From: Tetmemena sp. SeJ-2015
Taxonomy: Eukaryota; Ciliophora; Spirotrichea; Sporadotrichida; Oxytrichidae
NCBI GenBank assembly: GCA_027382625.1
Contig: JAJKFJ010021759.1
Location: 1-64,000 of the forward strand
Direction: 5' to 3'
DNA length: 64,000 nucleotides
The notes under the pieces are model-generated. The model made no database searches. It was not told where the DNA came from and was given only the letters and a program-made list of their open reading frames with translations. Shown piece after piece: positions 2,851 through 63,861 of the stretch. Each line of letters begins with the position of its first letter. The stretch's first letter is position 1. Both the position numbers and the translations under genes were made by a program.

Positions 2851-3109
2851 AAATCAATCTTTTTATTAATTTATTCGACCAACAAAAAATAAAGAAAAGC
2901 AGATCATGAAAAAAACTATATATATTGAATATGAATACATGATCGTGGATTGATTTAAGTTAGAAATACATTAAGTTTGTCTCTTCGTTGTGTGATTAAT
3001 ATAATATTACGCTTTAAATATAGAGTTTTTTAATTTAAATGTCTACCTCAACAACTACATCTACTTCAACAACCACTACTACATCTACAACAAAAAGCTC
3101 AACCTCTAA

Positions 3110-3353
3110 AACTTGAGAGTGACAACTGAGGAGGCAAGCTCCTAGAGTAACCAGAGTATCCCTCCCGATCAACAGAGACTCATCTTCGCAGGCAAGCTCA
3201 AAGAAATACTAAAGTATGCTTACACTTGAGTACTTTTGAACAACATCCACAACAAAATTTTTAACAAGGACAAGCAGAACCCTCAGCGATTACAACATCC
3301 AAAAAGAGTCTACCCTACTAAAGCAACTTCTCAAAATGCAGACACTAAACTGA
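3110..3353 (+). pseudogene. Ubiquitin gene remnant
   Basis: A frame from 3110 contains IPPDQQRLIFAGK (about 3158-3196), a signature of ubiquitin residues 36-48. After a broken stretch and frame change, SRTLSDYNIQKESTL follows (about 3275-3319), matching ubiquitin residues around 54-69. The N-terminal part is divergent and shortened and the C-terminal Gly-Gly is missing; the frame ends in TGA at 3351-3353. Just upstream (3041-3109) is a Thr/Ser homopolymer-like tract. Damaged and non-functional as it stands; it could be a germline-limited pseudogene or a scrambled fragment. Confidence 0.75.
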
Positions 3354-4037
3354 AAACGATACTGATGGAGTAATAAATGGAAACTATAGATGTTATTTAG
3401 CGGGAGTTGACTCCCTCATTAAATTTAAAAACATAATGCTTTTAAACTATCTCTAATTTAATATATATCACTTTTCTCCTGTTGTCTATCTTGATTAGGT
3501 TTTGCTTACCCACTATCATGTATTCATATTCACCCTATAAGCAATGAAGATTTGAGTTTAATGTAATTTCATTTTTTAAAATAATCATTTTAATCTTCCC
3601 AAAAAAGAAGTAATCTAAATTAAAAAATTCTTTTTTATAAAAAAACATTAAAAGTATTGCAAATATATTAATTTTATTATTTTATAAATTCTTTTCGAGC
3701 TCATTTACATTATAATTTATAGGATTAATATTAGAAAGAATGAAACAAATAGATGAGTAAATTAATTTATCTCTTTATTTTACATCCATTATATTAGTAA
3801 CTTTTAACAGTAACAACTTCTAAAACATAAGATTTCTTTTTTATTTACTTTTTTATTAATTAAGATTACATAAATATAAGTTTGAGTATTATATCATTTA
3901 TTTAAGCTAACAAATTATTATTGCTAAAATAAATTAATATATTCTACTAAAAAATAACTCTATAATTAAATAAGGATCCCAATTCTAATCGATTAATTAA
4001 TATCTAATAGTGAGATCACCCTAATACCTTTATAATT
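3354..4037. other. AT-rich spacer before unit A
   Basis: No coding signal seen. The last ~40 bp (ttaatatctaatagtgagat onward) are shared with the stretch just upstream of unit C (about 20,800) and probably hold the family promoter. Confidence 0.5.
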
Positions 4038-7000
4038 ATGAGAATCCAGTTCAAGATAATCTTAAACAGCCTTCTTCTAGCGGCAGTCTACTTCTGCACT
4101 GCTCTCTCTCATTCTTTAAAAATAATTGAATTAGAATTCAAAACGAGAATTAGATTCACAACTGGCTGCTGTAGGCTCAATATATATTAAATAAATAAAG
4201 CAATCAGTGACTAGTTTGTTTCCATATTTGAGAAGAGCCTTTATATAAATCTAATTTATTATTTCACCATGGATTATGACTATCCTCTTTCTTTTTCTCT
4301 CGTAACTTAACGTGGAGATCCACTTCCAAGCTTTATCAATATGTTTTTAAATGGAGAGATCTTGCTTTTTCAAGATTCCACAAAAACCGATACTAACCTT
4401 AAGGAAATTAACATACTATTCTATTGTTTTAATGATCAACTCAGACGATGGGTCATATTTACTCAGAATAATTGCTATGAATTTATAAATTAAGTATAAT
4501 AAATAGGGCTGGAAAAACAGCTTCACAGGATTTTACTCTGAGAATTGAAGGATGCTCATATTTTTGCAAAACTTGCACTGACGTTTCATATTTAGACTGC
4601 ACTTCTTGCGAAGCGCCTTATTTAATAGCAATTAATTTAAAGGTGAAAGTTTGTTTAAAATTTCTTGAAAGATTCTTAGTGCTAAAAGTCATCTCAATGC
4701 ACTGGAAACACTTATCCTGATACTACTACAAGAAAATGCTAATCTTGTCCGAGCTCCTGCACAGCATGCAGCAACGCAACCTCTTGTTCTTCTTGCCAGG
4801 TTGGATACTACCTTCATCAAGGAAAATGTATTTCCAACTGCCCAATCGGCACTTTCCCATCAGAGTAGTAAACTGGTATTTCAAGCGTATGTATTTCATC
4901 GACACTGATTACTGAAGAAGATAATATTAAAGGATAAATACAAAATAGAAGATCGATAATTTACATATATTTATAGAATAGACAGTATAACGAGTGCTTA
5001 GAGATTTAAATAATCTATAGTAATTAAGATTTAGTATACTAATAAAATAAAAAGTTTAAATTTGTCCCTGTTTATCAATTCAAAAAGTGATAAGAAGTAA
5101 TTATGTAGAGATCTCGACTCATTGCTTTGTATCTTCTTAAAAGGATCACTCTAAGGGATTTCTAGTTTAGTAATTAATAATTGAGTGAATTTTAATGGGC
5201 CCCTTAAGCCTTTTGGTTGCATTAGCAGTCCCAAATCTTAGCTAGATATCCTCTTTTTTTAAAGAGATTCTTTAAGGAATAATTAATGCTAAAATCGTTA
5301 GGAATGGAAAATTTGCAAATTATCGTTGAGAATTTATTAACTTATCCCTTTATAAGGAAGTTTAGTTATGGATTTACTATTGGAATATTTTTTTTTAATG
5401 ACTTTATTTTAAGATAGTCTAAGGGTTACTAAATATTTTCAAGAGGCTATTGTTATTTTTTATGCCTTAAAGTCTAATCCAAGATGTTTAGGATTTTGGG
5501 TCTTATCTTCAACATTATATGGACGAGACTTATTGTGATAGCTAAAAAGGGATACTATTTGGGGTTACTTTCCCAACTTCTATTTTTATTAAAAATAAGG
5601 AGGAGGAGCAACTAACAGTAAAAAACATGGCAAGCGCAGGCAATCAGTGATTTTTAAATTACGGTGCTTAAATATGCTTGATGGGGTTTATAATTCATTA
5701 ATGGAATAATTGATTTAGCATGCCTTGTCTGATTATCATTTGACAACTGACACGTCAGTGATGGAATTTACAGTGATGAATTCTGATCTTTTTGGATGTG
5801 TTTCCTCTGAGGTTTGCAAACAGCCAAATCTTCAATTAACTCCTCAATGCTCATGGCAAAGAAAATTTGCTATCCAATCAATTATCACATTTATAAATAA
5901 TATATTTTAATTCCTTTCTATAAGATTTAAATTAAAAAGCAACTAAATGCTACCCCTCTTCGCCTCCCCAAATAAGAATCGCCACTAACTCCATGCCTAA
6001 TCACTGCATCAATACTGAGTAAAAACAAATAGCATCACAAATTCATATTACATTATAGCTGCGAAATAATTGGACCATAGAATAATTAATAAATTAAATT
6101 ATTGTGGAATCAGAGTTTATTCTTAATGAAATAATTATTATACCATTCGATTCATTATTAATTTCTTAGATATTTGTAATATCGTAACTTTTGTAAGGAG
6201 CAGTCATCTAATAATTATAATGGTCTAGTATTATCAACAAATTTAACAGTCAATTAGTTACAAACTCTAATCACTTTAAATTAATCATTGATTTCAATTA
6301 AATCCTTAACTATAATAAAACAGTTTAATCAAGTCCGAAGGAAGCTCTCGTCGACTTTTAAGTTAACTTCAATACTTATTCAGCCGAAATCGACCCAATC
6401 AAATCTAACTTAATTTAATTGAATCTTATATTAAAACATTCAGGTTGAGAGATCTTTTGTCCATAAATTAAAGTTTGAGGATCTAGAAAAGTTTTTTCCC
6501 ACTAATTTTAATAAAGATAAATATAATCTTAAATAAGAAAAATGGGCACTATCTATAAATAAAATGTGTATGGATATTTGTATTGAGGTATTCTCCTCCA
6601 CTTCTTTATTAATCATCTTCTTTAAGCGAAGCTAGTTTTAGCAAAGATTTGCTTGAGATGCAAGTACATAAGGATCTTTATTCATAAATGGTTATTTAAG
6701 TAAGACTAATTTAAAGATGAATCTCAAGCCTAATATAAATTCAAAAAATATTTAATTCAAATAAAAAAGGCAAGAATGTTTTGTATGTTGCTTATTTTTG
6801 ATTAAAATTATATTATCACAAACTCAAATAATTAAAATAGATAACTAACTGTAGCTCAAGGGAGGCAACAGTATTTTTTCATAACGATATCTTATTCTTA
6901 ATAAAAATCTTTGCCGAAATTAAGGCTAAATAATTAGAATAGTCTCTTCATTATTTCAGATCACAATGCTACCTCCAAATTTTAAAATAGCTGAATTAAG

Positions 7001-33088: not shown

Positions 33089-36000
33089 TCAATTGTCTGA
33101 AGACTCGACCATTTTAACATCATTAACGTCTTCAGCATGCTTAAGTGAAGCATCTTATGCTTACTTTTTAGTTGATCTTGGCTTTTTGACTGGCTCACTC
33201 TTGTTTTGAGCCTTCTTTGCAGATTTTAATTTGATTTATACATCTCCCTTAATATCAGCACTTTATTAAACCATAGTACAGCATACCATCAATTGACATA
33301 TACTAAATAGGTTTATTTTAATGCTGCTGAAGACTCTGAAGTTTAAGACTTAGAACTCTTAGGGTTCTTGTCTGCCTTTTCTTTCTTGATAGCCTTAGTC
33401 TTCTTGGACGCTGCAGATTAATCTGCCTTTACTTCCTCAACTTAGATCAAACATATTTTTAAATCGCTGCTGGCTCTTTGCTGGCAGCGGCCTTCTTCAT
33501 TTTAGATTGAACCCCACTGGTCTTCTTTTCACTGGCTGCGAGAGTTGGAGAAGCCTGTGCTTGGGTTTGCTTGCCAGCCAAATTAACCCCAGAGGTAAAC
33601 TAGTTAATAGTCATCTGCTTCAAAAATATATAACTTATAGCTGATCTAGGGTCTTAAGTTACTTGATGATGATGTCTGCTGTTGCCTCAACGTTTTCAAC
33701 TGTGATTGTAGCAGCTATCTTGGCAGTGGATAGTTCAGCTTGCTTCTTCAGAGCCTCAATCTCCTTCTGTTTCTTAACAATCTCATTTGTTCTCTGCTGC
33801 TCTGCTAATACAGACTTCTCTTTCTCAATAGGGTCCGCCTTTTTAAAGAAGTTTGTGAGGACAACTTTGGGGGCTTGATCTCGTTTGACTACTGCTTGCT
33901 GATCCCTCTCTTTAAGTTTTTCAGTTTTCTCACTGCTTCCCTTGGGAACCTTACTTGCTTTCTCTTTGTGAGAGAGCTTTGAATCGTCTTGTGCTTTGGA
34001 ATCTTAGAGGGAGGTCTTAACAGAAGAGGGTCTATCTTGGCCTTGACTCAATTAATGAGCAGCCTAAGGAGTTGAAACCGGCGCACTTAGTTGGTTGTTT
34101 GAGTTGGCAGTGTTCTGCTCAGTTTCTACTTCCATCATTTACTGTAACCCAGCTGACTGCTCCTTCTCATTTACACCCAATCCACTTGCAAACTAGCCAA
34201 AATAAAAATTCATATAATTATCTAGTAGCTTTTTGGCTTTTACTCAGTTTCCTTAAACAGCAACTTAGGTTGTTTGTTAGGAGTGAGTAGATTAGAGATT
34301 GGCACTGTTGCTTTTTCAGCTGCTTTAGCTGCAGCAGCTTCCTATTTCTGTTGCTCCTTTAGTTCCTATCTCTCTAGAATCTTTTCTTGCTTCTGTTATT
34401 GCTTGATAGCTTGCTTCTCTTCTTTGGCTTTGAGTGCCTCCTCATCCGCCTTTCTAATCTCCTCAAGTACTTCTTGCAGTCGCTCATTGAATGTAGTTTT
34501 CAACTCCTCATCGTCTTGTAAGTTCAGTTCTATCAGAGTGCTCTCAGTAGCATACCATCTCTAGCGAGGGTCTTCCTGTTTCTTATCCTTCTCAAACAAG
34601 TCCCTCATCTTCTTTTCAATGGACTTCCTGCTGCACTCAGGATAAATAATAGTATACTTTTAGTTGAAGTCGTCGATCAACTTCTGCTTGCTCTGGAAGG
34701 ATCCATGCATCATTTTCACCAACTCAGCCAACTTGGAATTGATGGCCTTGGAGTTGAATTTGCTTCCAGTGCCTCCATTCTTCTCATCTTGATTTGCCTC
34801 GCCATCTTCTGTAGGCTTGACTTAGAGTGGGAAGTGAGCAGTCTTGGGGAATGCCACAGCTCTGTACTCTCTCAAGTAGTTAACGACTCCCCTCTCCTTT
34901 GAGTCCTGTAGAAATACGTAGTGCTGTAAGTTGCCATTCATATTGTTAGATTGCTTAGTGTACCTGTTAGCGTATGCTTCTCTCCTCTGATTCAGCTCCT
35001 ATTGAACTTGACTGCCCTCTTACTGGCTGAGCATGAGTTCACTTGCACTAATGTAGTCGTCAGGCACTATGAAGTCTTGCTCAGACTGGTTCTCCTGCTC
35101 TTCCTCCATCAGCATCTTCTCAATCTCGTCGTCTTCTGCGTCGTCCTCCTAATTCTCTTTGTTGACGTCTTCTCCATTCTGCTCATTCCACTCTTCTTCT
35201 GAACTCATCTCGTAGTCTATGATAGTTTCATCCTTCATTAGTGGACGTCTTGGATCAAGGAACGCACTCTTCTTTTCAAACAGCCCAAAATACTTCATGA
35301 ACGAGTCTTCAATTATAATGCACTTCTTCTTCTCTCTAGTCCCACTAGTCATATCGAGGGCTCCGTATGCTTTGAAGAATTAAGTTATTTATACAATGTC
35401 TCTGAGTTATAAAATAATAGATTAAATTCAATATAATATTTATGAAAATAATTATAAAGAATTGTCTTAAAGATTATTTAGATGGATATACCTCAGTCTA
35501 GGTAATGAAAGATGATCCAAATAGTTCTCTAAAACGCTTTTGCAACTTAATGGCTTCACTCTCGTGCATCTGAGAAGCTTTAAGATTTGGGTTTTGTAAC
35601 TTAAACGGACGAGGAAATACTTCCAACTACACATTGTTATTAAGACTTTGATTTTGATGTTTTTAGTCCTCTGCAAACTATTTATTTATAACTGGGCCAG
35701 CTTTCTGTTCCACTGTAGTCTTTTTCAACATGTTGAGGAGGGTATTAGTCTGGACAGGAGGCTGGTTGGTCTTTTGCATCTTGGGGGGATTAGGGTTTTG
35801 CATTTCCAGTTTGGCCTCTTCTTCTTGTTTTCTCTTGAGTTCGAGTCTTTGCTACTTTTCAAGTTTTTCTTGCTCCTTGAGTTTGAGCTTCTCTTGAGCC
35901 TGCCTCTCTTTCTCGGCTTTCTCTTTTTCCTTCTACTCCTCCTTTTCTCTCAACTATCTTAGTCTCTCCTGCTCCTTCTACTGCTTCTCTTACTCCTTCA

Positions 36001-45281: not shown

Positions 45282-50383
<5,102 letters not shown>

Positions 50384-50946: not shown

Positions 50947-52558
50947 TCAAAATATTATTTTTATATCCTCATCTAGACTTTCGATAGGTCTATTGTAAAA
51001 ATTTGGATCGAGTGCTGAGCTGAGTTGTTTATGAGATAAGCGAGTGTTATTAGTTGTGTGCTCATCTTTTGAGTAGCCTGCACTTCCAATCCTTGAAATA
51101 GGTTAGTTTGGATACTTTGATGTCTGTTCCCTGTCCCTAGTAATGCTCTTCAAATTCTCTCTCCTTCTTATGTTTCCTTCTGATTAGCAAGTATTTTCTT
51201 GATCAATGCTACCTTTATTAGGCTGGGCATGGTGATTTAGGTGATGTTAATGCATACTGCTAAGAGTCTTTTATCTCTTGTAGTCGTTTTAATTCGTAGA
51301 GCTTGAGTTAATGTCTCTGCTATGTGACTTCTGATTCAAAGTTCTCTCCATCTATTGCAGCTAATTTAGATTCTGAGTTCTTAGAACTTATAAAAAGCTT
51401 ATTAAATCTTTTAAATGTAACTGTCTTGTCTAAGTTCTGTGATTATTTAAGAGCATTCTTATTGTAGTAAGTCACTGCCCTTTGATTTAGTTCTCTCTCA
51501 TCGCTTGAGCAGCTGCTCGAAGAATCTGAAGAAAGATCATCATACTAGATAGTGCTTTTTCTTGGAATAACTTAAATAAATTACAACAGTTGCATTAGTG
51601 TTGCCTCCTCCTATGATTTTGTAATTGTTTGATTTACCATCTCTTATGTAAAATATAATGTACTATCTAGGAAGATTTCTCTGAAGGGGGCTCTTTGATC
51701 TTGAGGATGTTCTATCATTCAATATAGTCGATTTAGTATTCCCATCAGCGGGTGCAGCAAGCTATTTTGAGAGAATCTAGTTAGGTTGCTCATATTTGTT
51801 GAGGAGATAGTTAATTTGCGATTGCATATCACTTTTCATGTTCTTAAAAACTTCAGTAGTGGTTGCTTCTTTATCCACGTTGTTACTATTTTAAGCAAAG
51901 TGTTTGTTTCTCAAAGCAGCCTTTCCAGACCCAAGACTGCTCATTGAACTATTTTAATCGGCATTTGTAAAATTATTGACTTTAATATGATGCCTTTCAT
52001 TCGCATTAGAGTTAAGTCTTGAGGAAACATTATTCCCTAAAGAAGAGATGTTCTGAGTGTATTACTTTGATTTCTAGCTCTCTAATGTTTAAAATTTATT
52101 AGCTTCCCTTTCCACTTACTCTTCTTGTTGAGAGAAAACTTTCTGATTATAATTGTAGGGCTAGTAAGCCGAAGAAATGCTTGCTTAAGTAGCATTGTGA
52201 TTAGGATGGATGGGTCTATTCTTCTCAAAGCCCTTCTTTAGGTTGTTGAAGTTTGCTATCTTTCTTTACAATTCAAACTTGGAGGCTGTTAATCCTGTTT
52301 ACATCTAGAGTCTATAATTATTTAAACATTAAAACACTGTCTATAAGTGTCGCTTATCTGATTTTAAGTTTCAACTTCAGGCCTCGAGCTCATAGGATTC
52401 GCAGCTTGCAGTTTACTTTGATAATCAAACCTGTTCTTATTGATAACTACCTAGTTGCTATAATTATCGTTAATGCCATGAGTATGAACACTCGAATCTT
52501 AATTATTCAAATAGGCATGTGAGTTTATAGAAGAAGATGAGGCAATCTTTTTAGGCAT
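50947..52558 (-). CDS. Asn/Ser/Gln-rich protein, not recognised
   Basis: ATG at 52,558 (MPKKIASSSSINSHAYLNNQ). At least two frame breaks (near 52,250 and 51,560) separate blocks that all look coding: PIHPNHNATQASISSAYQPY, EREANKFQTLESQKSKQYTQ, DKEATTEVFKNMKSDMQSQI, LSSDSSSSCSSDERELNQRA and the end block PNFYNRPIESLDEDIKIIF before TGA 50,947-50,949. Predominantly disordered, ~500 residues. No known domain. The breaks are presumably IESs or introns like those in neighbours. Confidence 0.65.
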
Positions 52559-53122
52559 CTCTATATTCTTGCTCACCTTATCATATGCTCTTTGACTGTA
52601 GTTTTAATTCTATACTTTCTAACCAGTATTATCAAAACTAATATTTGCTAATTAAATATAATATTTCATAATTCATAATTAATGATATACTCTATTTATA
52701 AAATAATTTTTATATATGTAGAGTAACTGACATTTATTATTCAAATTAATTGTAGGTGAGCAATTTTTAAAGTAATGCTATTATTTTTATAATCACATCA
52801 AATAATATATTTTAAATTATAATTTACTCTCATTAAATTTGATATAATTCTAAGTTATGTGTAGAATATGAAAATAATATTGATGTAATTAGGTTTCTGG
52901 TGATTAGCATCATAGTCATTTGGTTGTAATTGAGCCTTATTGATTCTGTCATAGAAATTAAAGCCATTGGGTGCAATACCCTTACTTTGATAATCTTATG
53001 AATTAATCTATAAATAACTTCAAGGGTACAAAGTATATTTTTGTAAAACATAGTCAAAATATAGAGTTTAATGATTTTTGAATTTTTGCTAATAAAATAA
53101 TTTTTTGCCTTTATATCGCATC
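52559..53122. other. AT-rich intergenic region between divergent genes
   Basis: No gene recognised; presumably holds both promoters. Confidence 0.45.
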
Positions 53123-55459
53123 ATGAATCAGCTAGTTTCCCCAGAAGTTCTCGTTTCAATCCTTGAAAAGCAATTAACTGACCTCAAAATAAAACAAATC
53201 ACTAAAGATGATGTAAAGAGAATATTCAACACGCTCAAGCTTTACAAGAAAATAGAGTCAGATAAAAGATTTCAAGAAATCGGCCACAAACTATTTCAAG
53301 AGTTAGTAGAAAGAGTAAACTAGATTTTAAGTGCAGAAAAAAGCACAGAACCAAGTTAGTAACACTCGGAATAAAATAAATCCTCAAGTAATTAAGATAT
53401 CGCTCGGTTTAATGAAATCTTAAAAGAACTTGAAAAAATACAGATACTAGGTGACTTCAGAGTGAAAATAAAATAGATAGAAGAAGACGCTAACTCAAAG
53501 TCAAAAAAGCATACTTAAAACTCTCAATCGTAAATAAGTACTAAAAATTCTAATAGAGAAGCTAAAACTAAAGAAAAGGGAACCTTATAAATCACAAAAA
53601 GGGAAAATAAAGCAGACAGAAAGTAAAAGGAATCGCAAATCAGTAGGACAAACAAAAGAGATACAAAGAATATTTCAGAAAGGAAGAGAAGTAGAAGCAG
53701 AGACTGATCCAGGAAAAAGGAAAATGAAGCTAATCGAACTGATGAGAAAAACAAAGGGAGAATTCCTGAGACTACAAGTATAATTTAAGATTCTTTGACT
53801 AGGATATTGAACGATCATGATTTATTTGACGAATTTAAGTATAAGCTAATGCTCAGCTTTAATAATGTGGGGAATGTTGAGGAAAAGTTCCTATGCTATA
53901 GAGGATAGATAGTTAATGAATCAGCTTATAAAGGTCAGGTTGAAAAGTTTGAGAAGCTCCTAAGAGATGAACAATTTAGAAGAGACTAGTTTGCAAAGCT
54001 TGAATCAGTCTTACATATGTTTCATAACGAGGATAATTGCATAGATAGTTCATCTTCTTTGGACTGTAAGTTTTCAAAAAAACTTGGAAGCAAAAGTCCT
54101 AATGCACAAGACAAGTCATCAAATGATAATTCTTTGAATTAGATGGAGTTTAAGACTAGAATCGATCTTTACTTGGAATGGAAAAGAGAGCTAAATTAGA
54201 GAATACATCTATAATAGAATAATTGCAGACTCTCTTAGAAAATTAGCAACCAAAATAAGATTATTGGCATGAGATAAATTGAATTAGAAGAATTGGTTAA
54301 TTTGATGAGTGAGGTCAAAATAGATTGCAAAGCTGATGCCAACTTAATATAGAAGAAATCGATCATTACAAAATACCCTCATCAAGTCAAAAATATAGGC
54401 AAAGGAAATATTGTGACAAATACAGCAGATCCAAAGGCATTCTTGCTTTCACAAGAAAAGATATTTCATCTTGGAGGTACTCCAACTTCTTCTTCCCCAA
54501 TAATAGAAAACTCAATTCTATTAACCTCATAAAGCATAGAAGAATATATTAAACATAGAACTTAAAAAGAAAAGGAGGTTTAATTCAGATCCGACCAGAA
54601 TGAATTAAGTTCTTAAAATTCTAAGTGCTACTAATAGGTCTTCAACAATAATCAAACTTACTTACCAAACTAAATCGCCTAGCCTTTTATGAGCTACGAA
54701 TAATGCGCAACTCCTTTTCATTTCCCTCAGGCTTAAAACTTTTTGAGTCATCCAAGCTTAGATGGGAATCCATCTTTTCAAAACCAGAACTTTATGAATC
54801 AATCGGCTCCTTAAGCATTAGCCTAGTTACAATAGTATCAACATTACTAATAACCTCAGCCACTTCCCGCAGAAACGCAATTCTTATTTAACGTTTTAGA
54901 GTAGAGAGTACCTGGAAGTACAAGAAATCTTAACTCTGACATAAAGGAGTGCCTTAGAGTTAACCCAACAGCAGCTGAGAGAATCGTGGATTATTTCAAA
55001 GAAAGATAATTTGATCAAGCTATAATTCAGGCCTTTATTTAAAATCCAATTACAGTTGTCTAGCACATCATTCAATAGCAAACTGAGAGTCAATCTTTGA
55101 ACGCTTCAACGCCACATTAGTAAAGTAGCGAAGGAGATTAAAGCTAAACCATTCAAATCAGTTAGCATTAGTACAACATATAGACTAATTAACTGCCAGC
55201 TAAATCTGTTAACTTGATTTTGGAAGGTGCTGAAAGGGAGAATGACGAAGCTGAAAAAGAAAGGAAAAGAAAAGAGGAAAAGTACAAGGGATTGTAAGAT
55301 GCAGACGTAGAGGCTATGAAAGAAGTAGAAAAGCTAATGGAGTAAGCAGAAGATCCTCGAAAAGTTATGAGAATAAAAGCCATTCTCAAAAATAATCCAA
55401 ATCTAGTGCAATTTGTGAAGGACTCAAATATAAAGAATAGAAAGCTTTTGTTTAGCTGA
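53123..55459 (+). CDS. Large charged protein with one in-frame TGA, not recognised
   Basis: ATG 53,123 (MNQLVSPEVLVSILEKQLTD). The single frame stays open to TGA 55,457-55,459 (about 778 codons) except for one TGA at 53,705-53,707 in RSRSRD-stop-SRKK. The N-terminus is helical; the middle is coiled coil (KTRIDLYLEWKRELNQRI); a Gln/Pro-rich stretch follows; then a UBA/Sti1-like helical block (NPTAAERIVDYFKERQFDQA). The end is a charged helix (DADVEAMKEVEKLMEQAEDP). The TGA either replaces an Arg CGA codon or lies in a 30-nt AGGAA-flanked insert (53,681-53,710) whose removal keeps frame. No family assigned. Confidence 0.7.
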
Positions 55460-55565
55460 TTACTATTTTATAAGATTTATCTATACTTGATTTCTATTTT
55501 ATTTATTAAGTTTTAAAATTATTAAATTTACTTATATTCACTCACTGATCTTGATAACAAGGTCT

Positions 55566-56787
55566 TCAAATTTAATCGAAGTCTGTTGTCACTCTTTGAG
55601 GCTCTTAAATTGGCTTTGCAGAGTATGGCTCTTAGCTGCTACCTCTTGACATCTATCTAGGCCTACAGACCCAGCATTTTCCAATATTTCCTTTATCCTT
55701 TTGCCTATTATTTATTGAATAATACTCACTCATATTATCTTGTTTTCCATCGTCATGTCGAATATTACTAGTTGGGCCTGCACCAAATCCTAAGCATCCT
55801 TTATTACCTGTACCACCTTGACTCTAGTATTAGTCATTCTATAATTTCTGTGCACCTCCACTCTTGAACTAAATATAGTTGTCTTACTCTGCACGATTGC
55901 AATTGAAGTCAGGGTATTTCTCTGAAAAATGTTGAATGAGTTACTTTTTAAGAGAACTCAGAATCTAATCCATGTTATCTTGAATCATTATTTTGGGATA
56001 GAGCAAACCAGTTTCTCCATAAATCTTTCCTTTTATATCATTAGTTCGATGAGGCTGTGCGTTTATGAATAATACTTATTCAGTTATGTCACTGGCAACT
56101 GATATTGCACCTGCAACGTTCTATCTTATTTTGCAGTTGAGAACGTAACAGCTACAAAGCTTAGCGTGAAGACCGTCATTTTTATTTCCCCATAGTTCAC
56201 TCTCATAAATCAGGAAGACTGAATTTTTTAACAACTGTTTGATTTACTTGGAATATCTTTCTTGCTTTGGCTTTGCTTGAAGATATTCACTTTAATTTCA
56301 TAAGATAATACAAGAAAGATAAGATATTTAGATTGTGGCTTTGAAGATAAGTTATTTCTATCATTGATTTGATCATGCTAAGAGTTTGAAAATAAATTAT
56401 TAGGAAGAGCTAAAATCATTAAACCTTGAACTATCGTATCCCATGCTGTTTGCATCATTTTGAGCGGAGATATTTCTTGAGAGAGCTACTACTCCATTTT
56501 GCTCATTGAACTTAAATTAGCATTCTAAGACTTCACAAATACCTTCAAAGTCAAATACTTAAAGCCCGTTTCCTGAGTTCTCAGTGATCTTACAATTACT
56601 GATTTGGATGTTGGAAGGATTCACAAGTTGACTACTCTCAATTTGAGTCAGCGGAGTCTAAAGCTAGTTTGGATACAGCTTATTGATAGTTGTGAAAATG
56701 TTACTGTGGGTTGTAATGTTTATTCCATCACCTTAGTTTCTAGTTATCAAATTATGGTCCAGCCAACAACTGCTGTTTTCAATAAAA
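55566..56787 (-). CDS. Right-handed beta-helix protein, 3' block of a split gene
   Basis: The block opens without any ATG at ENSSCWLDHNLITRNQGDGI, continuing IQISNCKITENSGNGLQVFD, CQFKFNEQNGVVALSRNI and, after a break near 56,230-56,400, LIYESELWGNKNDGLHAKLC and CYVLNCKIRQNVAGAISVAS. These are parallel beta-helix (PbH1/NosD-like) coils with the N-x-G turns typical of the fold. The C-terminus is polar (GGTGNKGCLGFGAGPTSN) and ends TGA 55,566-55,568. The missing start is supplied by the block at 62,306-63,861: both edges carry the same 11 bp (TTTCAATAAAA on the plus strand). Function unknown; such repeats bind carbohydrate or act as scaffolds. Confidence 0.78.
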
Positions 56788-56882
56788 TTACTATTTTATT
56801 GAGTCTCAGATAAAAAGGAGAAAAGGATTAGTGGAGGAAATAAATATTAATTAATTTTATTTTTTATCAGCAATACAAAAAT

Positions 56883-57272
56883 ATGCCCCCCAAGAAGAAG
56901 GCCTCAGGAGATGCTTCCAAAGGAGAGAAGATTTTCAAGAACTTGTGCTCTGCATGCCACTCACTATCGGTAAGCATTCAAATCGAGAAGAGCATTAATT
57001 TCCTTAACTTATTTCTTAGGCTCACTCAACCGGTCCTGCCCTCGGAGGTCTACCAGGCTCTAACATAAAAATTAATAATCATCGCTTCTGGAGAAGGATT
57101 CAACTATTCTTCTGCTCTTCAAGCAAAGGCTACCCTCAAGTGGACTGACGGTAACTTGGACAAGTGGCTTAAGTCCCCAGCTGACTTTGCCCCAGGTAAC
57201 GGTATGGCTTTCGCAGGTATCGCAAGTGGCAAGGATAGACAGGATCTCATCGCTTACCTCAAGGGAGGTTGA
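56883..57272 (+). CDS. Cytochrome c
   Basis: ATG 56,883 (MPPKKKASGDASKGEKIFKN), then the haem motif CSACH. A 50-nt GT-AG intron (56,970-57,019) joins HSLS to AHSTGPALGG. A 16-nt CAT-flanked insert must go to join GLPGSNI to ASGEGFNYSSALQ. The distal part KWTDGNLDKWLKSPADFAPG, then NGMAFAGIASGKDRQDLIAY, has the Met axial ligand; TGA 57,270-57,272. About 108 aa, normal size. Electron carrier between complexes III and IV in the mitochondrial intermembrane space. Lies inside the split beta-helix gene. Confidence 0.95.
57064..57079 (+). other. 16-nt IES in cytochrome c, pointer CAT
   Basis: CAT at 57,064-57,066 and 57,080-57,082; the insert is 16 nt, AT-only apart from the pointer C, with no GT-AG. 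After removal the spacing from GL to GF (13 residues) equals that in other cytochromes c. Confidence 0.85.
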
Positions 57273-57725
57273 AAACTATAGTTCTACCATATTCGTAGAA
57301 AGAAGTTTATGGATAAAAGATAGTCTCTCAAATACGAGAAGCTGATACAGTCAAAATTAGTCAGCTGCAACTGTCTAATATTTAACTATTAATTACATGT
57401 AAACTCTTAATATTATTTAATATTAACCCTCTCTCTCTGAGAAAGAAAGAACTTAGTAGCTTAAAGGAGCTGATCTTAATTAGAGTGTCTAGAATTACCT
57501 TTCAATTTCAGTAGAGTGATTCTCTATTAATTTTGCATAGTATCTCCTTTTGCTGCCAATAAAATGGAGCGTGTGAGTATTTTTCGAAGGTTAAGGAAAA
57601 TATGAAATTAATTGAATAACGATTCAGCAATCAGAAAATGTATGGAAAACAACTTACTTTCAATTAACACTTGAAATTGCTAAAATATTCAATGTTCACT
57701 CATTTTAAGGCTTAAGATATAGATA
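57273..57725. other. Intergenic region, cytochrome c to CKS1
   Basis: Same-strand neighbours; no extra gene seen. Confidence 0.45.
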
Positions 57726-58508
57726 ATGAGCAGATAAGTTGAGAAGCCTGAGTACTCAGAGAGATATACTGACGAAGATTTCGAATACAGATATGTGGTA
57801 TTACCAAGGGAAAGAGGAACAGAGCTAAAGGGTAGGGGAATCCTCACTGAAGAAGAGTGGAGAGCTCTTGGAATCACTTAAAGCAGAGGATGGTAGCACT
57901 ACGCTTATCATAAGTAAGTCATAAAATTAGTTAAATAGTAATTGAACTTCTTTTTCACTATTCTTGAAATTTAAAGAAAAACAGAAAGCAAAACCCTTTA
58001 ATCTACTTTAAAACAATGAAGATAATCTAGATTTTAGATTTTATTAAAAACTCTATATCATCATTAAAAAAATTTCAATGACTTAAAAATAGAATATTTT
58101 TAATTGGTTTAATTTTAATGGAATGATAGTGAAACTAAAATAACTTCTGTTTGAGGAGCTTTATTTATAATTTAAACAATTTTTAACTTCTCTCAATTTA
58201 TGTAATTATCTCGTAAGAAATAGAAGATTGTAGACAGACAATATATAAATATATTTTATGTTAAAATATATTTAAATACAAATAAAGCAATGTTAAAGTT
58301 ATTTATTTGTTCGGTTTCATTTAAATTACTAGCTATAATAAGAATTTGTTAAAACATAGTCTGTAGGCATGAGCCTCACATTCTTCTTTTCAAAAGACCA
58401 CTTGGCACAGATCCAAGAACTGGGAAAGTTACGCAAGAATGCTTTTTATAACACTAAGCAAAGGTTCAGGAGGAGAGAGACAGATTCATCGCAATGCTCG
58501 CCTAATGA
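57726..58508 (+). CDS. CKS1: Cyclin-dependent kinase regulatory subunit (CKS1/Suc1 family)
   Basis: ATG 57,726 (MSRQVEKPEYSERYTDEDFE). YRYVVLPRERG, TEEEWRALGITQSRGWQHYA and, after a ~455-nt AT-rich interruption, HEPHILLFKRPLGTDPRTG are the CKS signature (phosphate-binding Arg and Trp residues kept; HEPHILLFKRP beta-hinge end). A short C-terminal extension (CFLQHQAKVQEERDRFIAML) ends TGA 58,506-58,508. Binds CDKs and adapts them to phosphorylated substrates. The interruption can be read as a GT-AG intron (57,914-58,366, giving YHKHEPHI, the family's usual spacing) or as a CAT-pointer IES. Confidence 0.94.
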
Positions 58509-58755
58509 CTAACCATTTAAATCTAACATTAACTTCTATCCTCTCTTTTATTATTTATCTTTGAGAAACTCACAAAATATCAACCCAAGAAATTCCGCTA
58601 TAATAATTCAAATGCAGTTAGTGATACCTAACTCAAATATTATGATGATATGAATTAAAATTGAATATGAATTAATTTCATAACTTTATAACATTAATTT
58701 ATCAAACTAAATGGAAAATACCCTCACTTCGTTATCTTCTTTTTTAATTCCTATT

Positions 58756-61700
58756 TCAAACTTAAGACTGCTTTCTGAATGATTTATGAGAAATAGGAGA
58801 ACTATTTAAGCTTATTTTAGGCTTAATGAGGTTCTGATAGTTTTGGGAAGATACTTGGAGTATGAGCTATGCATCAGTTCTGGCTCCAAAGAAGTATCCT
58901 TGCTTATCTGAAGTCTTTCCTCTTTTTTAAATTTATAATGATGATCTTTCATCAGTTTAATTTTTGAAATTATTCTAATAATCTTGGCTGCTTTTATTAG
59001 TGATTATTGTACCCATTTATACTTTTCTTTATTGATATTTCAAAAGAAAAATTATTATATAAATAAATTGATGACCATAACTTTTTTCTTCGAAACCATG
59101 AGCAGTATTGGTAATGCTTTTAGAGTAGAGTGATTTGAAAAGACTCTCTTAATTTTGATTCATTTAAGTTGAGAACCCTATGTTTGTACTTCTCATTATT
59201 TAATTTAATTAATAAATAGAATATCAAAAATAATTTAAGCTGCATTTTAATTTGCTAAATTTATTTGAATTTATTCATGTGTATTTTATTCTATTTTATC
59301 ATTTCTAATACGTTTATATAGTTTTTAAAAGGTTATTTTAATAAGTTAATTATTTTAAATAGAATATTTTGTTATCATTAGGGAAGTGGAATATTCATCA
59401 ATACTAAAATATACTTTCCTATTTATGATTTGATAGCTATGACCTTGGAATAGGTTTTAGTGCTCTGTAGTTCACAAAAAAATAAGCAATGAGCTGTTTC
59501 TGATTTTATCTGTACTGTTCATTAGTTTCATCAATAGGAATACGAGAAGTACTTTATGTTTTTGTTTAATAAAGATTTTTTATGGCTTCATTTTGGTCTA
59601 GATAAGAATTCTAGAATTGAAGACTACTCTGCTTTAAACTTAGTTGGGTGGAGTAATAAATGAACTTTTAACTCTTTCATCAGATTGTTAAAATCCTAAG
59701 TTTTATTTAAGGTGCTTATAATACCTGAGCTTTGAGTTTGGCTTTAAGGTGTAGGCAGTATTCATCAACTTATCGCCCTCATTGTTATTTGATAAATTAT
59801 TTTTCCTTAACTAGAGCCTTTGCTGCATATGAGGGGAGTTGTGATGGCTGTAAAGTCTGTTCTTTAAGTCTATTAATCTATTAGTTTGGATGCCTGATGT
59901 TTAAAAATCTGATATTGTTTTGTTCTAAAAAGCCTTCACTCTTAGCTGGAGAATAATAAAATTTTGTACTGAATGTGTCTAGTTATCTCATGTTAAATGA
60001 ATCGAACTTCTGAAGTCTTAGATGCTTTATTGGAGGATTTTGAGGGTACTTTTATAATGAAAAGTAGTCTTGATTGGACTAACTAATTCCTAAATTGTCA
60101 TTTATTTATTCTGTACCATTAAAAATAAGAAGATAATTTGTGGGCTATTTATCACCTCCTGAAGTAGTATCAATAGTTTAGCATTTATCATCAGCACTTA
60201 ATCGATATTGCTTTTTTCTATAGTCCTTTAACTTTATTTTAGATTGAATGTAGTTATCAGCAGAGGAATAATCTGTAAATTTTTGAGACTTCAATTATCT
60301 CTTCATTCAGTCTGTCTTGAATTAAAAGAGTGCTTGGCTTTTACAGTTTGAATTATTGACGGTGTGTATTTTGCGAACTTTAAGCTCACTATCATTCATA
60401 ATACGCTTCCAAGCTGATGCATGCTATTATAACTTAAGGAAATCTTCTTGCTTCATCGAATAAACTTGAAGAAAAAAATTATATTGCGCTGTTTGCGAAA
60501 TGCACTTAGCTGAAGTTGAATATACCATGTTTTAGGTTAGAGATAGATTATCTTATTCAAACTTTTTCTTTGCAAGTAAGTCTCCTTGATCAGGCTACTT
60601 TTTAGATAGCAAAAATGGCTTGACAATATCTTCATCACCAAGCAAGTTTAAATTTCCAGCTATGTAAAGTTAAAAGGTTGCTTGCTCTTTTTAACTTGAT
60701 TTTCCTTTAAAGAACTAGCTCTATTATCGCTTAGCTTTCATTGGATTTTGTCGAATACCTTTGACATCTTCATCTCGCTCCTTTGATAATTTGAATTTCT
60801 TAAAAACTTGAAATTCTCCTATCTTAATTATATAAACTTTATCAGCAGGTTCTCCCTCTCTAAACAAAATGCAATCCTTTGGTGTTACTCTAGTTTCAAG
60901 ATTCTAACTTAACTTGGCTAGAGTGTTCCTAGTTAACTTTGCAAATGGAGCAATCTTCTAAAGTATGCTAATCTTTTCATTAGTTATTCTTCGCTCTATA
61001 TTAGCAAGAAGCTTCAAGAACGAATTCTTGTTAAACTTACAAAATTAATAAGGATAAATATTGCTTATCAAAAAATTATTTGTAATAATATCTCAAGCCA
61101 TTTCTCATTATTATTCTTATAATGTGGTTAAAATTTATCTAATAAATTATCAATTTAGGAATATTATAAATATGATTTTTAAGCATTTTTAGCAGCATTA
61201 AATAGTTACAGCCAGTTTATTGCACACTTTAAAATAGCAAAAGATAATTTCAAAGTTGCGAATACAATCCTTAAAATAAGTTTAATTACTGCTAATTGAG
61301 AATCTTGGACGCATATTGCTTCATTAGTTCTTTGAGCTTTTTCATTTAAAATATCTTCTTAGCCAAATATCTCTCCCTCTCCAATTACTATACTTTCCTC
61401 TCTTTCTCTCAAAAAGTGAAAGGAGAAGTTGCTAACATTCATCCCCTTTTTATATTTAGGGAGTTACGACCCTGAGCTCTTCTCAATTTTAGGACTACTT
61501 TTGAAGGTTGAGCTAGCTGCCTCTGAGAATTCACCCATCTAATCTGCTTCATTGTCAAAAAAATCATCATCATCTTCCTACACATCTGAATCATCCATTT
61601 GTTAGTTGGATTCTTCTTCCTCTTAGATGTAGTCAAACTATTTGGATATATTTTTATTTCCATCTTTCTTTAACTCTTCAAAATTGAAATGCGATATAGC

Positions 61701-62171
61701 TTAATCCTATATTGCCTGCTAGCTTGGAGACAGGAAATCAGATTATGTAAGGTTGTCTAAATTTGAGGAAGTCATGAATACAGCAGAGTTTATCTTATTT
61801 TTAAGAAGCTTGTGTTTCTATTAAAACACCTAGTTTTAACTTATTGTCTTTCTGGGTCCTTAGCCCTTCTTGAAAAATCTATTTGAACACTTTAATAAAA
61901 TAGTATATAAACTTTTAGGAGTAGGTGGAGGTTTTTATTAACAAACGAGGCCTTTAAAGACAACGTAAACTTTCTCCGCATTATCCCCCACTCCATAAAT
62001 TAAGTTCCCCTTCAAATGATTCTCAATATAAAGACGTAAAGCTATATCCTACAGATCTTAATCATCGGCCCTCAGCTTCTGAAAGTAGGAAATAGCTTTG
62101 AGCTTAGCTTGGATTTGTTCCTAGTCTAATTTTTCTTAATTCGTGGGTTGCTACAAATTTGAGCTTGTCAT
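58756..62171 (-). CDS. Protein with cyclic-nucleotide-binding-like domains
   Basis: ATG at 62,171 (MTSSNLQQPTNQEKLDQEQI). The first cNMP-like fold is split by an acidic insert: LKGNLIYGVGDNAEKVYVVF ... SIVIGEGEIFGQEDILNEKA. A second, clearer domain follows near 60,760-61,030: NEKISILQKIAPFAKLTRNT, then KDCILFREGEPADKVYIIKI, GEFQVFKK. The rest is polar (for example YSSADNYIQSKIKLKDYRKK), and a last block (RGKTSDKQGYFFGARTDA) near 58,930 ends in TGA 58,756-58,758 after an AT-rich gap (58,940-59,460). AT-rich breaks also occur near 61,040-61,270. Resembles ciliate cNMP-binding proteins of the regulatory-subunit type; no kinase domain seen. Confidence 0.78.
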
Positions 62172-62305
62172 TTTAGTTTAATTGGATTATTAAAGAATAA
62201 AATATAGCACAAGGGGAATTCTACACCTTTTTAAAATAGTTAAGAAGATTGATTATTTATGATTTTTGAATACTTTGAGTTATCCTATTTACGATGTTAA
62301 TTTTA

Positions 62306-63861
62306 TTTCAATAAAAACAGCACAAGATGCTTTAACCTCAGTGATTTAATTGCTCCTAATGATTGCTCTTCTAAGATCACTATTGTAGCATTACACATTT
62401 GAGAGGTAAATAGCGTGTCCTTGATTCTTTAGAATATCATTTTTAACTATTTCAAGACTCTTAATCTTAAGTCTTTGAACAATAATCTGATCTTTGAGAC
62501 ATCCATAGATTTTATTGTTGCTAATTTTAATGTATACATTTAGAAGAAGTAACTAGTTCTCTCTTTTTTTTGAAACCTCCCTTGTTTAAGCATCAAGACC
62601 TTCATTGAGAATCAGATCTGTCAAAAACTTTTGCTGCCTAAAATGCTCTTTAGATTACTGGCTGATATGAATTGAATAGTTCTTGATTTGAATGAATCTA
62701 TTTGACTGGAGAATAATCTTCCTCTAGTTATTCATAGACTTTTAATCGAGTTCTTGTGCTAGTGAATAGTTTTCTCTGTTTGGCTGCAGTATTTTAATCT
62801 CTAGCGCATCTTCTTCGCATTTTTAAATAACTGAACTTGTCATTTTAAAGATCCTTGGATGTATTAGTTTAATAGAGCTTCCTCTTGTGTTTATAATTGA
62901 GCACTTGTCTAAGTTTATTATCGAATTGTAGCCACCATTCAAACCAACATGGAAATCACTAATCGTAGTTGAGTTTAGAGAAATTACTCCTACGAAATCT
63001 TCAATTAAATCATGGCCAGGTTTGCTTTTTCCTTCTCTAGTGGGATGAGGGGCTATTGATTGCTTGTTTATTATGAAGCAGCAATCTTCAACGTCAGTTA
63101 TTTCTACATAATAAAAATAATTGACTGAGACGTCTGCAGCTTGAGCTTTAATGAACTCATCCTTCTCTTTTTGTATTTGTTATAAGTCTTTAACACTGAC
63201 TATATAGCAAGTCAGTGATTTCTAAATAGCTGTCATTTTCTACAACAAAGCAGCTAAGTATACCCTTCTCATGTTCAATTTGAGAGTCAATCGAACTTTC
63301 TTCTATATTATCAGATCTCTGTTCGTTGGCAAGTTATCTTCCTTCTACTCTGTGAGAAGAGTTCTTGTTCTTAATAATTATCCCTGTGGATTGCTTCATA
63401 TGTTTCTTCTGTTTGTTCTAACTTTCTTCAGCTTTATTCCTATTGAATGTAATATGGACTTCTTGTATAATAGCAACTTCGTTTCTTTTCAGAGGGCTAC
63501 TCTGGTCCTTTGATTATTGATTGAGTATCTGATTTCTTGATGAACTTTAAGACTCTTAAGACTTCCTACCATTTAATAGAAAGTCCACAATTATACTGCC
63601 ACCACAGACTTCAATGACTGTGCCAGGCTTTCCTATCAGAGTAATTGGCTTTGAAATTAGAAGTGTATGGACTCTAATAGTCTCTGCAGGTAGTTCTATA
63701 ACTTCCCCTACCTATGAATTGTCAATAAGCTTCTGGATATGTCTTCCTAATTCATCTGTGAATGAAAAATCGCTTTACTTTAGTTTAAACTCAGAGGGAC
63801 TCAGAGTTGTCTCCCCATGCCTTCCATTATCTTTTTTAATTATACTCATGAATGAGTCCAT
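62306..63861 (-). CDS. Right-handed beta-helix protein, 5' block of a split gene
   Basis: ATG at 63,861 (MDSFMSIIKKDNGRHGETTL). A beta-helix entry segment follows (VGEVIELPAETIRVHTLLIS, KPITLIGKPGTVIEV), then coils such as CSIINTRGSSIKLIHPRIF, SSVIQKCEEDALEIK and ILKNQGHAIYLSNVQCYN. One 4-nt frame break at 63,195-63,201 is the only obstacle before about 62,900. The frame then runs past ASCAVFIE without any TGA into the cyclic-nucleotide gene's ATG, so the block has no stop of its own. The 11-bp repeat at its end matches the start of the block at 55,566-56,787, which has a stop but no start. Confidence 0.8.

Follow-up and report, generated by a model that had tools for sequence, protein, structure and literature searches.

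Organization of the locus

The window analysed here, the first 64,000 of the 88,357 bases of contig C2831, contains a candidate nested germline locus of a ciliate. Two blocks of right-handed beta-helix coding sequence, both on the minus strand, lie on either side of an interval that carries genes for cytochrome c and a Cdk regulatory subunit (CKS), as well as most or all of a gene with matches to the cNMP-binding domain (hereafter the cNMP gene). Genome searches were made in the assembly to which this contig belongs (146.2 Mb, 5,213 contigs). The long open frames of the window require both TAA and TAG to be read as amino acids, with TGA as the only stop (genetic code 6). We take TAA and TAG to encode glutamine in the host ciliate.

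Block 1 (63,861-62,306) starts with an ATG at 63,861 and has no stop codon of its own. Block 2 (56,787-55,566) closes with a TGA at 55,566-55,568. The inner ends of these two pieces carry an identical 11-mer, TTTCAATAAAA on the plus strand, as a direct repeat with a spacing of 5,529 nt. This spacing is also the length that would be lost from the outer gene, one copy of the repeat included. No ATG precedes the repeat in the stop-to-stop frame of block 2, which extends to 56,903. Both blocks matched the right-handed beta-helix family PF13229, block 1 with 30.9 bits when read with its natural continuation and block 2 with 35.2 bits over its first 137 residues. Fusing the blocks at TTTCAATAAAA keeps the reading frame and gives ASCAVFIENSSCWLDHNLITRN. 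An earlier note on this DNA had described a block with a start and no stop, a block with a stop and no start, beta-helix coils in both, and an identical 11-mer at which they fuse in frame; each of these statements was borne out.

Coil register and coding signal at the proposed join

Residues on either side of the repeat were scored against the PF13229 profile. Profile positions 80-117 were covered by the last 53 residues of block 1 (18.3 bits), and positions 121-150 by the first 40 residues of block 2 (15.6 bits). When joined at the repeat, the junction fragment aligned as a single stretch over positions 80-150 with a score of 36.2 bits. The corresponding fragment of block 1 with its natural continuation scored 20.0 bits, and the start of block 2 with its natural upstream sequence gave no match to the profile.

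Alternative joins scored lower. All eight hand-made off-register joins fell below the join at the repeat (24.8-32.3 bits). In-frame words of at least 5 nt shared by the two sides numbered 32, with the 11-mer as the longest. Nine of the 12 other in-frame words of at least 6 nt were scored, and all gave lower values (18.8-29.5 bits); the other three, each of 6 nt, and the 19 words with 5 nt lie outside the scored set. Altogether, the join at the repeat was the best of the 18 joins scored, ahead of 17 alternatives.

Coding signal falls at both copies of TTTCAATAAAA. Just within the blocks, the coding score in the right frame is slightly positive (2.2 at 62,380 and 1.4 at 56,740). In the adjoining linkers, at 62,200-62,260 (GC content 0.22-0.24) and 56,800-56,860 (GC content 0.30-0.32), it is negative in all minus-strand frames.

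The former linker also bears on a different reading, in which block 1 and the cNMP gene encode one long protein. An open frame runs from 63,395 to 61,071, and the linker contains no TGA. For this reason the missing stop of block 1 is weak evidence when taken alone, as its frame continues without a stop across the linker and on into the cNMP gene, and TGA is the sole stop codon. With a single stop codon, however, a stop-free linker of ~45 codons would be unremarkable. The low GC content and negative coding scores of the linker, the drop of the junction fragment from 36.2 to 20.0 bits with its natural continuation, and the ATG at 62,171 all argue against a fusion protein, which we consider barely credible. 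It was rejected on the linker coding scores and the drop in bits at the junction.

Predicted segments of the outer gene

Each block needs one excision to hold its frame. Judged from the sequence, the likeliest choices are a 25-nt excision at the pointer GACTT in block 1 and a 147-nt excision at the pointer TCAAAC in block 2 (Table 1). The former is tied with an excision of 22 nt (63,209-63,230) at the pointer GCTAT, also of 5 nt. Joined forms of 644 and 864 residues matched PF13229 with 57.7 and 61.1 bits, respectively. On these choices the beta-helix gene would encode 864 residues as joined and would be carried in the germline as four macronuclear-destined segments (MDSs), with the two short excisions as probable internal eliminated sequences (IESs).

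A paralog seemingly without the interval

A genome-wide search with a joined protein gave eight candidates, all eight of which were scored. Six were matches, three at the window locus, two in contig C3620 and one in contig C2798. The last, at C2798:3119-3379, is the sole further relative and is 40% identical to residues 8-94. This search was not very sensitive and missed the middle part of the same paralog. Homology to block 1 in C2798 covers 3104-3379 and 3822-4688, with local scores of 155 and 156 (maximum of 91 among 300 shuffles). Sequence resembling block 2 lies at 4623-4817 (score 69), in an open frame (3717-5114) shared with the block-1 homology, and again in a later frame at 5349-5561 (score 73). 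The open frame of C2798 matched PF13229 with 36.5 bits over ~4401-4829.

The paralog is divergent, extends over ~3,100-5,600 and seems to be without the nested interval. Cytochrome c, CKS and the cNMP protein were all absent from the 10 kb around it at an E-value of 0.01. This paralog suggests that both halves of the window gene belong to one kind of gene.

Contig support for the junctions

A second contig covers part of the locus. Contig C3620 (13,038 bp) repeats window positions 51,045-58,592, after which its sequence reverses into an inverted copy of itself. It looks like the product of amplification or an assembly chimera. It is 100% identical to the window over 53,420-57,169, with lower identity on either side. 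C3620 reads through the left junction, from block 2 into the cytochrome c gene.

Weighing a split gene against its alternatives

The chance level of the repeat was estimated from 5,000 dinucleotide shuffles of the two transition regions. Regions taken at the coding edges (71 x 81 bp) shared an 11-mer in 0.36% of shuffles and an in-frame 11-mer in 0.04%. The length of the pointer alone proves little, since the two sides of the wider region also have a 12-mer in common, which does not keep the frame and falls in noncoding, AT-rich sequence.

Several observations weigh against a single split gene. The wider transition regions (249 x 233 bp) shared an 11-mer in 6.0% of shuffles and in frame in 1.9%. 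In the 146-Mb assembly, the AT-rich TTTCAATAAAA has 1,826 occurrences (918 + 908), or about one in 80 kb; a reversed-sequence control of the 11-mer occurs 771 + 806 times. Given this genome-wide frequency and the shuffle rates, the 11-mer alone is only suggestive. The codon-bias signal is weak, and negative windows occur within the blocks as well (e.g. 56,380-56,560 and 62,980). Block 1, and hence the right junction, is present in the single contig C2831. A 48-mer across the join had no match in the assembly with up to three mismatches, although the lack of a joined copy is weak evidence because the assembly seems mainly germline.

The protein comparisons add to this list. The remaining 221 residues of block 2, its second half, had no Pfam match at an E-value of 1. 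The joined proteins had no homolog in a large protein collection (E-value 0.001; 7,998 candidates scored), nor did joined residues 470-610 (E-value 0.01; 136 candidates), and the 864-residue joined protein had no PDB match at an E-value of 1. In the C2798 paralog, the block-2 scores of 73 and 69 are modest when compared to the null distribution (mean 49.4, standard deviation 5.4, maximum of 74 among 300 shuffles), and the nearer match (4623-4817) has 66 nt in common with the end of the block-1 match. About 76 residues round the junction are skipped in the paralog, which resumes at the block-2 stretch PSNIQISNC. Beyond the block-1 match, C2798 aligned to the joined tail with a score of 19 (p 0.84, 2,000 shuffles). 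Because the junction residues are skipped and the tail alignment is at chance level, the paralog is no test of the exact join.

One alternative is two separate beta-helix genes, with block 1 as a 5' part that continues elsewhere, such as in a distant MDS, block 2 forming the 3' part of another gene, and the 11-mer shared by chance, as it was in the wider-region shuffles at the rate given above. Beta-helix coils are alike, and chance could therefore produce a fair register; moreover, the C2798 paralog exists and fails to align through the exact join. Nevertheless, the pointer join was the best of those scored, it holds the frame, and coding signal drops at the repeat copies. The genome-wide search, at its low sensitivity, also found only the N-terminal region of C2798 beyond the window locus and C3620. 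We regard two separate genes as improbable.

A further alternative is an artefact of assembly or amplification, in which the segment with cytochrome c, CKS and cNMP ended up inside a beta-helix gene through chimera formation. C3620, apparently an inverted-repeat chimera of the same region, indicates that chimeras occur in this assembly, and the right junction is found in one contig. However, C3620 confirms the left junction, and an artefact would not be expected to create an 11-bp repeat that keeps the frame and falls where the coils are compatible. Moreover, the observed chimera is inverted, whereas blocks 1 and 2 share the same orientation. Such an origin is very improbable, and a pure assembly artefact was rejected on the presence of the left junction in C3620.

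The place of the repeat, its frame and the coil register make the case for the join. We favour, at a probability of roughly 0.86, a single beta-helix gene whose halves are separated by an interval with pointers at its ends and other genes inside. MDS 2 and MDS 3 would be separated by the 5.5-kb stretch that carries cytochrome c, CKS and all or most of the cNMP gene. When a new somatic nucleus develops, recombination between the two 11-bp pointer copies would fuse MDS 2 with MDS 3, and a single copy would remain. For the outer gene, the interval would in this way behave like an IES. Separate somatic chromosomes would preserve the inner genes, and these chromosomes would be cut either out of further germline copies of this locus or out of the excised DNA.

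As to how a split gene of this kind arose, an unlikely scenario is that the three-gene block moved in one step into a beta-helix gene that had been continuous. The present pointer would then be an 11-bp repeat that this event either created or used, as a target-site-like duplication in the first case or as microhomology in the second. If true, the paralog would represent the arrangement before the insertion, giving a datable birth of a nested germline locus.

A perfect 10-bp inverted repeat was also observed at 56,779-56,802 (TCAATAAAAT / ATTTTATTGA, with a 4-nt spacer). It overlaps the left pointer copy, such that the pointer core is found in inverted form just inside the interval.

Genes within the interval

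The earlier note had listed cytochrome c and CKS on the plus strand and a cNMP-binding protein on the minus strand as the contents of the interval. The first two stand as described, and their coding regions look complete within it. For the third, most or all of the gene lies in the interval, and its two parts matched PF00027 with 23.0 and 24.3 bits, both under the 27.5-bit cut-off.

The cytochrome c gene contains a 50-nt GT-AG intron (56,970-57,019, read by eye). The frame change downstream fits a 16-nt probable IES (57,064-57,079) with the pointer CAT, in agreement with the IES that had been proposed for this gene. With intron and IES removed, the protein aligned to cytochrome c iso-1 over residues 8-105. 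The joined CKS protein aligned without gaps to residues 12-82 of Cdk regulatory subunit 2 (4y72_C). Its gene has a probable GT-AG intron at 57,914-58,366, which is AT-rich (GC content of 0.14-0.30 in windows). At 453 nt, this intron compares with 50 nt for that of the adjoining cytochrome c gene, and an IES may lie inside it. All features of the locus are collected in Table 1.

Table 1. Features of the nested locus in window coordinates; MDS, IES and pointer assignments are predictions.
Feature	Position	Strand	Remarks
MDS 4 of the beta-helix gene, with TGA stop	55566..56242	-	Open frame to TGA
Probable IES, 147 nt, pointer TCAAAC	56243..56389	-	Longest pointer among 163 frame-restoring candidates
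MDS 3 of the beta-helix gene	56390..56787	-	No upstream ATG of its own; PF13229 35.2 bits; drop in coding signal upstream of pointer
Pointer copy 2	56777..56787	-	TTTCAATAAAA on + strand; direct repeat
Nested interval, 5,518 nt between pointer copies	56788..62305		Left edge also in contig C3620
Cytochrome c gene	56883..57272	+	Boundaries read by eye; joined protein PF00034 37.1 bits
CKS (Cdk regulatory subunit) gene	57726..58508	+	Boundaries read by eye; joined protein PF01111 105 bits
Gene with cNMP-binding-domain matches	60310..62171	-	ATG at 62,171; AT-rich interruption at ~61,080-61,300; 3' end provisional
Pointer copy 1	62306..62316	-	TTTCAATAAAA on + strand; direct repeat
MDS 2 of the beta-helix gene, ending in 11-bp pointer	62306..63188	-	PF13229 (block 1 with natural continuation); drop in coding signal nearby
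Probable short IES, 25 nt, pointer GACTT	63189..63213	-	Frame-restoring; joint longest pointer among 125 candidates
MDS 1 of the beta-helix gene	63214..63861	-	N-terminal part; frame open from the ATG at 63,861; homology to paralog C2798:3104-3379 over residues 3-94

Further copies of two inner genes were found in the assembly. A second cytochrome c gene, with interruptions of its own, lies at ~C2873:167,020-167,786. The adjoining 10 kb contain an open frame of 600 codons in code 6 compared with 150 under the standard code, which is what a ciliate contig should show. By eye, the first interruption of this gene coincides in position with the window intron at 56,970. Besides the window locus and C3620, CKS matches were found in C2701, where an in-frame TAG is present, and in C3212/C4375 and C1507/C3247/C4568, where in-frame TAA and TAG are absent. 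The inner genes are probably not irreplaceable, as judged from these copies. The earlier note had argued that removal of the interval would also remove essential genes, which would have to be retained on other somatic molecules. This argument is weakened because further cytochrome c and CKS copies exist in the assembly; the claim of one gene split around others stands as the best reading of the coil register, coding signal and paralog.

Comparison with known nested loci

In a nested germline locus, as defined by Braun et al. 2018 (PMC5940158), the MDSs of one somatic chromosome are all situated between a pair of MDSs that belong to another. In that study, 1,301 of 15,811 macronuclear contigs of Oxytricha (8%) have other loci nested inside them, with insertion depths of 1 (1,163 contigs), 2 (125), 3 (11) and 4 (2), and 1,847 contigs are found only embedded. 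The window locus resembles these 'Russian doll' loci of Oxytricha trifallax in that the loci of other chromosomes would lie between two MDSs of an outer gene. Unlike the published cases, which were mapped to sequenced somatic contigs, its somatic side is inferred. With its three inner genes next to one another, the window locus shows one visible layer of nesting, compared with the published maximum depth of 4.

Another parallel comes from Oxytricha and Tetmemena (eLife 2022, PMC9797194), where an 18-bp pointer that joins MDSs across two loci is described, as well as a Russian doll locus in which another pointer bridges three. In the latter a single pointer joins MDSs over three loci, as is predicted for the window. 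In this published locus, the pointer is long and partly conserved between Oxytricha and Tetmemena, and two of the bridged loci are scrambled; no scrambling was seen here in the genes examined. The same paper suggests that longer pointers help over greater distances. The available passages of a paper on circular DNA (PMC6765146) do not address the fate of nested genes.

The window locus probably belongs to a common and already described class. The suggestion in the earlier note that it is an extreme case is not supported, as nesting is common in Oxytricha, a pointer bridging three loci has been published, and one layer is visible here. If confirmed against somatic DNA, the locus would add a nested example, unscrambled as far as seen, from another hypotrich-like germline genome. 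Its paralog, seemingly without the interval, would then help to date the origin of such nests. The accepted picture of nested loci is unchanged.

Source of the DNA and other genes in the window

A 20-mer of the C4A4 telomere-like repeat had 67 matches in the assembly (24 + 43, overlapping ones counted). The scarcity of this repeat suggests that the assembly is mainly germline. We take the code and telomere type to point to a hypotrich-like ciliate. Together with the short pointer-bounded interruptions within genes, they fit the germline (micronuclear) genome of such an organism.

Bacterial-looking contigs are also present in the assembly, for example C3167, with a GC content of 0.61 in the 3.2-kb locus measured. 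Cytochrome-c-domain matches without in-frame TAA or TAG were found in C3167, C1832, C1762 and C3721, and these four contigs may represent bacterial contamination. The GC content of the matching loci was 0.44 in both C1762 and C3721.

Elsewhere in the window, a gene for a chromatin assembly factor 1 subunit A-like protein lies on the minus strand (34,213-35,427) and a protein kinase gene on the plus strand (47,920-50,160).

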